Shown in pieces: positions 11,372 through 12,321 of a stretch of 64,000 bases of DNA (positions are counted from its first letter, which is position 1; the number at the start of each line of letters is the position of its first letter). The stretch comes from Candidatus Avelusimicrobium intestinale. GTDB taxonomy: Bacteria > Elusimicrobiota > Elusimicrobia > Elusimicrobiales > Elusimicrobiaceae. Under the pieces are notes generated by a model, which saw only the letters and a program-made list of their open reading frames with translations, was not told where the DNA came from and did not search any database. Position numbers and translations under genes: made by a program. The DNA is taken from the NCBI GenBank assembly GCA_902765225.1, contig CACWYV010000002.1, positions 66,697-130,696 on the forward strand, written 5' to 3'.

Positions 11372-11408
11372 GGAAAGTTGTAATATTTCGCCCATTCTTT
11401 AAGGTTTC

Positions 11409-11442
11409 AAAACCGCTTTAGATTTTCCTAAGGCGGTTTTTT
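11409..11442 (+). terminator. Rho-independent terminator
   Basis: AAAACCGCTTTA pairs with TAAGGCGGTTTT, followed by TT, right after the secreted protein gene. Confidence 0.85.
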
Positions 11443-11579
11443 ATGCAATTCCAAATCCAGTTTTAGACCATACATCATTCAATATTCAATTCCGAATCCT
11501 TCTCTTTTATCGTATGTAGTATCGCCACCAAAATTCTCTGTGCGCCATTATAAAACTTATCTGCCATTGGATGCTTGAT

Positions 11580-11826
11580 TTGCACCCGGGTTTGTTTTTT
11601 ATTACAATGATTGAGTAGTCAAATTTGGATTATTTGTTGGAAGTGCAGGGAAAGCCTGCGCAGCGCCGGGTGCCGCTAGGCACGAGGCACATTTCCGTCC
11701 AGCGAATAATCGTCTGCTTTTGCCTGTTCCCGCGGGAACAGGCAGGCGGCGGTTATTGCACGAGTTACGGAAATGGCTCAGGCGATAATGTGCCGCTTTT
11801 TTTGCGCTTTCCAAACGGAGACAAAT
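11580..11826 (+). promoter_or_regulatory. Promoter and structured leader (candidate attenuator) of a prepilin gene
   Basis: A promoter TTGCAC (11580-11585), 17-base spacer, TACAAT (11603-11608) starts a leader of about 210 bases. The leader can form small hairpins at 11645-11659 and 11670-11683. It can also form a large structure in which ATTTCCGT (11691-11698) pairs with ACGGAAAT (11767-11774) and a perfect 24-base palindrome (11721-11744) forms the tip. An alternative stem, GCGGC..TTAT (11746-11756) with ATAA..GCCGC (11785-11796), is followed by seven T and would be a terminator just before the ribosome site (ACGGAG, 11815-11820). The two folds share bases and exclude each other. The stretch 11443-11579 shows no gene or clear signal. 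Confidence 0.5.
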
Positions 11827-12321
11827 ATGCAAAACACAAAAACCGGTTTTACCCTGATAGAGTTGCTCGTCGTTGTCCTCATCATCGGCATTTTGGCGAG
11901 TATCGCTTTGCCGCAATACAAAATGGCCGTCGCCAAAAGCCGCTACGCCGCGTTAAAACCGCTAGTGCAGGCCCTCGCCACCGCCGAAGAACAATATTTC
12001 ATGGCCAATAACCAATACACGGACCAAATGAGTGAATTATCCCTAGAAATACCGGGCACCCCTTTACCGGATTCAGATAACTATCGGTCCTTTGGAAACG
12101 GTAAATATTGTTCCATAACTATTGGCAGTGCTGTCAACCAATACCTGTATTGCAAAGATTCCTCCGTCGGCTTATCCTACGGAAAGAAACTGGTAAGGAA
12201 CAAAAATTATTTCTGTGTCCCCTACTCGGATTCTTCCTACTATCAAATAGCCAAGAAAATTTGCCAAAACGAAACAAACAATACGTTGGATGAAAACGGT
12301 TCCTGGTATTCCTATCAGTAA
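11827..12321 (+). CDS. Type IV prepilin, orphan major-pilin candidate
   Basis: This 164-residue protein starts at 11827 after ACGGAG. It has a short basic leader ending in KTG, then the class III signal [17 protein letters not shown] with Glu5, giving a typical type IVa prepilin cleaved by PilD after Gly. The C-terminal part has four or more Cys and a GKYCSITIG segment that fits the C-terminal beta-sheet and disulphide loop of pilins. It lies alone with a long structured leader, about 20 kb from the pilus operon. Its hydrophobic helix is identical in sequence to that of the prepilin at 30245-30832, but the codons differ, so the two are old paralogs. It could be the main pilus subunit. Confidence 0.85.
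   Translation: MQNTKTGFTLIELLVVVLIIGILASIALPQYKMAVAKSRYAALKPLVQALATAEEQYFMANNQYTDQMSELSLEIPGTPLPDSDNYRSFGNGKYCSITIGSAVNQYLYCKDSSVGLSYGKKLVRNKNYFCVPYSDSSYYQIAKKICQNETNNTLDENGSWYSYQ

Follow-up and report, generated by a model that had tools for sequence, protein, structure and literature searches.

What does a long, strongly folded leader do in front of an orphan type IV prepilin gene of a gut bacterium? We addressed this question for a single locus within a 64,000-nucleotide stretch of the genome of Candidatus Avelusimicrobium intestinale (hereafter, the window), where the original prediction was an attenuator or riboswitch leader of the prepilin. Comparison of this leader with its homologues leads us to conclude, with a probability of roughly 0.8, that it is a cis-acting transcription attenuator that represents a new RNA family.

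The locus and the structured leader

The gene downstream of the leader encodes a 164-aa type IV prepilin (Pfam N_methyl, 5.5e-8). The putative promoter is sigma-70-like (TTTGCA-18-TACAAT); its match to the consensus is weak (9 of 12 positions), and the -10 hexamer TACAAT recurs at the same place in close homologues. Transcription is expected to start near 11614-11616, an inference without transcript data. A strong intrinsic-terminator-like hairpin at 11408-11445 (AAACCGC..GCGGTTTTTT) ends the upstream gene, and therefore the pilin leader probably needs a promoter of its own. A PPDK encoded nearby is 96% identical to that of the rumen MAG RUG11790. An in-frame N-terminal extension of the pilin from the ATG at 11773 was considered and rejected, the close homologue L041 being without that ATG.

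The leader is about 190 bases long, and its minimum free energy of -103.8, against -79.2 +/- 4.8 for shuffled sequences (z = -5.1), places its structure far beyond chance. The predicted order of elements, a promoter, a structured stretch and seven T shortly 5' of the ribosome-binding site of the prepilin, is thus present. The elements are the following.

11579-11608, + strand: inferred promoter, with the -35-like TTTGCA, an 18-nt spacer and the -10 TACAAT
11618-11811, + strand: whole structured leader, within the limits of the covariance model (178 bits in the window)
11628-11641, + strand: strand 1, the 5' arm of helix P1 (anti-antiterminator), GATTATTTGTTGGA
11643-11661, + strand: hairpin P2, GTGCAGG-GAAAG-CCTGCGC, with two-sided changes in 7 of 7 pairs
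11665-11688, + strand: hairpin P3 with an internal loop; outer helix GCC/GGC, inner helix GTGCC/GGCAC
11690-11698, + strand: 5' arm of helix d, pairing with 11767-11775; 9 of 9 pairs covary, 98% paired
11698-11711, + strand: 3' arm of P1, pairing with 11628-11641 and overlapping strand 2
11705-11717, + strand: strand 2, the 5' arm of helix e (antiterminator)
11721-11744, + strand: apical hairpin f, a perfect 24-base palindrome
11746-11759, + strand: strand 3, comprising the 3' arm of e (11746-11757) and the 5' arm of the terminator T (11746-11750 and 11753-11759)
11767-11775, + strand: 3' arm of d, inside the terminator loop in the OFF fold
11782-11796, + strand: strand 4, the 3' arm of T
11797-11803, + strand: U7 tract, the predicted termination point
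11817-11820, + strand: Shine-Dalgarno sequence GGAG
11827-12321, + strand: regulated gene, the orphan prepilin (164 aa, Pfam N_methyl), starting with the ATG at 11827

The palindrome that had drawn attention to the locus is exact (TGCCTGTTCCCG/CGGGAACAGGCA) and caps, as described, the ATTTCCGT/ACGGAAAT stem, the arms of which are those of helix d. The alternative stem said to end in the seven T also exists, in a refined form: the conserved terminator is 11746-11759/11782-11796. The third arm of the switch, P1, a perfect 14-bp helix, was absent from that description. The palindrome can be rejected as the functional core because, in a long subclass of the family, hairpin f is swapped for an insert of about 80 nt with two hairpins. 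In the long-subclass members L105-L154, one of the insert hairpins has a few recurring loops, for example, GGACUAAUUACCC, GAGCUGAUCCCUU and GAAGUCAUGAGCC.

Covariation of the helices

Absence of structural covariation among relatives would have refuted the original prediction; the covariation is massive. In an alignment of 60 sequences (A2), 94.1% of the cells of P2, P3, d, e and f are paired, and two-sided changes occur in 42 of the 46 pairs, with 611 two-sided cells compared to 165 +/- 17 in shuffles, none of 500 of which equalled the observed value; slid partners pair in only 39-45% of cells. A second alignment comprises 51 sequences, most of which belong to other genera and families and 50 of which were not used in model building; it gives 93.4% paired cells and 630 two-sided cells. 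Because both alignments were fitted to the P2/P3/d/e/f structure, they are biased in its favour; the slid and shuffled controls are nevertheless far from the observed values. The alignment used is a realignment to the covariance model, because MAFFT by itself put the 3' arm of d of L037 in the wrong place.

P1 and T lie outside the structure of the model. P1 is paired in 84% of the cells, with covariation that rests in part on one-sided changes, and T in 97.5% for the outer helix and 74% for the inner helix, with compensatory pairs of the types AU/GC/UA (28 two-sided cells) and CG/UA (19). Taken whole, the P1/P2/P3/T structure exceeds every shuffle. Across the paired positions, G-U is found in 378 cells and A-C in 95, a ratio of about 4:1, which indicates that the element acts as a + strand RNA rather than as a DNA element.

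A predicted three-state switch

The four strands give rise to three pairwise incompatible helices, namely P1 (1:2; 11628-11641/11698-11711), e (2:3; 11705-11717/11746-11757) and T (3:4). In typical members, strands 1 to 4 read UUAUU / AAUAA / UUAUU / AAUAA in the subclass of the window and CUGUU / AACAG / CUGUU / AACAG in the long subclass: the two main subclasses differ in all four strands, which have changed in step, and strands 2 and 3 specific to one class are never seen in the other (0 of 66 and 0 of 54). It is difficult to account for such a joint change of four strands if any of the three helices is unimportant. The mutually exclusive terminator and antiterminator folds that were originally proposed for one locus are accordingly kept across the family, as seen in covariation, folding and strand classes alike.

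Simulated transcription, which consists of equilibrium calculations rather than kinetics, gives P1 a probability of 0.98-0.99 once 11711 has been transcribed. Helices e and d compete from 11757 on, and at 11779 the probabilities are 0.9 for d, 0.8 for e and 0.04 for P1. In the transcript cut at 11803, P1 reaches 0.99 and T 1.0; at the U-tract, P1+T has -90.7 kcal/mol and d+e -81.0 kcal/mol, a gap of 9.7 kcal/mol. In longer read-through RNA, the d+e fold is favoured again, as expected of an ON state. Among the family members cut at their own U-tract, 113 of 154 fold into P1+T, compared to 30 of 462 dinucleotide shuffles; in the remaining 41, P1 and T do not both fold, and a weaker P1 or T is frequent in the long subclass and among distant members. 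These calculations predict, by inference only, a switch that would be OFF by default and would have a narrow decision window.

The mechanism that we propose is as follows. Formation of P1 (1:2) would allow that of T with its U7 (3:4), so that transcription would end near 11803 and the gene would be OFF. Formation of e (2:3), locked by d and capped by f, would destroy T, so that the polymerase would enter the prepilin gene, which would then be ON. P1 would form upon transcription of 11711, and d and e would rival it while the polymerase crosses approximately 11757-11785; the output would be set by whatever holds or opens P1 during this crossing, and the likely sensor, also inferred, is P1-P2-P3 together with the conserved junction residues. 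The helices, their covariation and incompatibility, the strand on which they act and the association with genes are observed features of the family, whereas termination, the default OFF state and the sensor are deduced without transcript data. The leader meets the criterion of an attenuator with an intrinsic terminator, that is, exclusive terminator and antiterminator folds and a U-tract before the start codon.

In trp-type attenuators, strands pair 1:2, 2:3 and 3:4. The identical strand logic of the leader brings up ribosome-mediated attenuation by a leader peptide of the trp/his type, which we consider extremely unlikely and reject: a short ATG-started ORF with a Shine-Dalgarno sequence occurs in the first 120 nt of only 13 of the 158 members, no translated leader ORF thus being in evidence, in 71 of the 158 the first 90 nt are devoid of ATG, and at most about 15 nt separate P1 from the expected start site. 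The leader further differs from the trp/his type in having a conserved P2/P3/d domain.

Another possibility is a structured 5' untranslated region that affects translation or mRNA stability without any termination switch. The read-through transcript of the window allows the 5' GGAAGTGC to pair with the GCGCTTTCC adjacent to the Shine-Dalgarno sequence, and this pairing is kept in close relatives. Family-wide, however, it is found at 36 compared to a permuted mean of 28.4 and maximum of 38, that is, not above permutation, and was dropped as a feature of the family; the T stem running straight into the U-tract is, on the contrary, conserved. We regard this explanation as quite unlikely and retain the transcription attenuator.

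Distribution and evolution of the family

The leader could not be assigned by eye to any known class in the original prediction, and Infernal searches of the window and 20 loci spanning the subclasses against Rfam 15 likewise yielded no match over the leader at the gathering score and nothing convincing at relaxed E. Matches to Leu, Thr and Trp leaders in L107 were set aside because they score below the cut-off and either fall outside the leader or lie on the opposite strand.

A covariance search for the leader in relatives and upstream of other pilins, the check proposed with the original prediction, found homologues at both. There are at least 150 homologues in Elusimicrobiota, counted as distinct aligned copies, with further ones among the matches listed. 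DNA searches of congeners detected leaders that are 73-84% identical in four genomes. Every one that was examined precedes a lone prepilin gene, either immediately or by a few hundred bases, and the loci differ: the neighbours are gmk (the situation in the window), clpC/kdsC, marC, rimO/kdsA, recR/tadA and a site-2 protease gene (names from reading the translations). The R1 covariance model, built from 10 sequences, has matches in 43 of 61 congeners, and the R2 model, built from 60, in 52 of 150 genomes of the phylum. The R2 matches belong to the family of the host and to a second family outside its class (f10), with one weak match in a third (f11); one match is in a named groundwater Elusimicrobia genome. 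No R2 match was obtained in the listed genomes of a different family of the same order (f2), and no leader match in 32 genomes from other phyla. Several to about 17 copies are present in some genomes, and two tandem leaders precede one gene in L275 and L282. The host genome has six copies, namely those of the window, another prepilin, a staphylococcal-nuclease homologue, a DUF4422-like gene and a lipoprotein-like gene, and one of unclear target.

The open-access literature, to the extent that it was accessible, contains no description of such a leader, which does not exclude a closed paper or lists of unnamed candidates (e.g., PMC8040213). With respect to Rfam and that literature, this RNA family, which is widespread in gut Elusimicrobiota, is previously uncatalogued.

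The presence of the leader varies between congeners. At the gmk site, only the 3' half of the leader is kept in one genome (G072/L146), with a stub resembling a lost pilin, and another congener has unrelated genes there. For 90 of 97 copies the nearest relative belongs to another genome, and for only 7 to the same genome. It follows that the leader is passed on together with its locus, by inheritance or exchange, and does not multiply within a genome.

Many copies per genome before unrelated accessory genes, richness in palindromes and variable presence among congeners would also be features of a DNA element, either a MITE-like mobile repeat or an attC-kind recombination site carrying accessory genes. 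Such an element is very unlikely and is rejected on the G-U excess, a one-stranded RNA constraint, and on the lack of spread within genomes; moreover, orientation relative to the gene is fixed in pilin-linked copies. Viral spread is rejected as well: 74 viral contigs share a 16-base exact match, and R2 scores none of them. The preferred reading thus remains an RNA attenuator.

Downstream genes

Among the 158 distinct copies, the mechanically assigned downstream gene is a prepilin in 70, another ORF in 77 and none in 11. Given that prepilins account for only about 60 genes in the 1.4-Mb host genome, this amounts to a strong enrichment of prepilins among the targets. Conversely, the leader is found at only 2 of these ~60 prepilins: both are among the 30 best prepilin matches of the genome, a genome-wide search for the leader adds none, and the other prepilins that were read have short or different upstream regions. 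The non-pilin targets (Pfam; defence models also run) include outer-membrane beta-barrels (7), EcoRI-type and other DNA methyltransferases (5), HsdR (2), glycosyltransferases of several families, SNase and a TRL lipoprotein. In the second family (L252, L255, L256 and L282), leaders lie directly 5' of restriction-modification genes (EcoRI-type methyltransferase, HsdR). The attenuator part of the original prediction stands, and the leader is not confined to prepilins: about half of the copies precede prepilins and the rest other genes, so that a pilin-specific function is rejected in favour of the leader of a multi-gene regulon. By comparison only, this target set would resemble the contingency genes of other bacteria.

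In most pilin-linked copies, a start codon is found no more than about 60 nt downstream of the model end, mostly with a Shine-Dalgarno sequence; some copies are more than 200 nt from any recognisable gene. The copies without a close downstream gene, along with the ~190-nt terminated and strongly folded product that the OFF state would yield, are compatible with a stand-alone sRNA that uses T as its own terminator, the pilin being read by leakage or from elsewhere. The usual proximity of the pilin start codon speaks against this, and the conserved incompatible helices (e vs T, P1 vs e) would be useless to a plain terminated sRNA. We find this alternative unlikely, although it need not exclude an attenuator, which we continue to favour.

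The ~60 prepilin-like matches in the host genome are scattered, many of them as single genes. Just 5' of three of these prepilins are poly-T tracts of roughly 40-50 (L313), 12 (L290) and 14 (L292) T, possibly slippage-prone promoter tracts for phase variation. Two others (L297 and L308) are preceded by a short degenerate leader-like sequence (GATTCT..TTTTTGGAA..) with most helices missing, a possible decayed or minimal form.

Known regulators and candidate signals

The leader has much in common with terminating riboswitches (SAM-I type platforms): a multi-hairpin domain closed by P1, competition between antiterminator and terminator, a U-tract before the Shine-Dalgarno sequence, a multi-gene regulon and, as in some known riboswitches, tandem copies. 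It differs in having no Rfam class or known ligand, and in that its helix d spans the switch.

T-box leaders are defined by a T-box sequence in the antiterminator just 5' of the terminator together with a specifier stem I. The long subclass has UUGGAACCG, which recalls the T-box UGGNACCGCG, and both involve an antiterminator/terminator switch. The UUGGAACCG-like motif, however, is at the 5' end, inside P1-P2, with its UCC partner within the leader itself; the genes are not aminoacyl-tRNA or amino-acid genes, and there is no Rfam T-box match, such that the T-box criteria are not met.

The c-di-GMP (GEMM) riboswitches occur before pilins, for example, in Clostridioides, and in both cases a structured leader controls pilin or surface genes. 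Unlike them, the leader has no match to the GEMM-I/II covariance models. GGDEF and RelA/SpoT proteins are present in the host genome, and GGDEF also in 14 of 15 other leader-bearing genomes; the exception, G154 of the second family, with 8 copies and 90% completeness, has no GGDEF match, which weakens the case for c-di-GMP sensing. Sensing of c-di-AMP is rejected, the host genome being without a diadenylate cyclase (no PF02457 match). The gene set points to no single metabolite, no ligand has been identified, and a small molecule and a protein appear about equally likely as the trigger. With somewhat less than even confidence, we suggest a new riboswitch class of gut Elusimicrobiota, with an unknown small-molecule or second-messenger ligand, that jointly switches pilins, outer-membrane proteins, surface glycosyltransferases and DNA methyltransferases or restriction enzymes.

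Implications

The leader is a member of a large orphan RNA family with clean covariation, which Rfam lacks and which belongs to a gut phylum that has hardly been studied. About 150 sequences and a consensus are available and the exact pairs for mutation are defined, so that the question of what is sensed is directly testable. That the targets are surface and DNA-modification genes rather than those of one metabolic pathway is an uncommon arrangement among riboswitch-like leaders and may indicate a signalling ligand.
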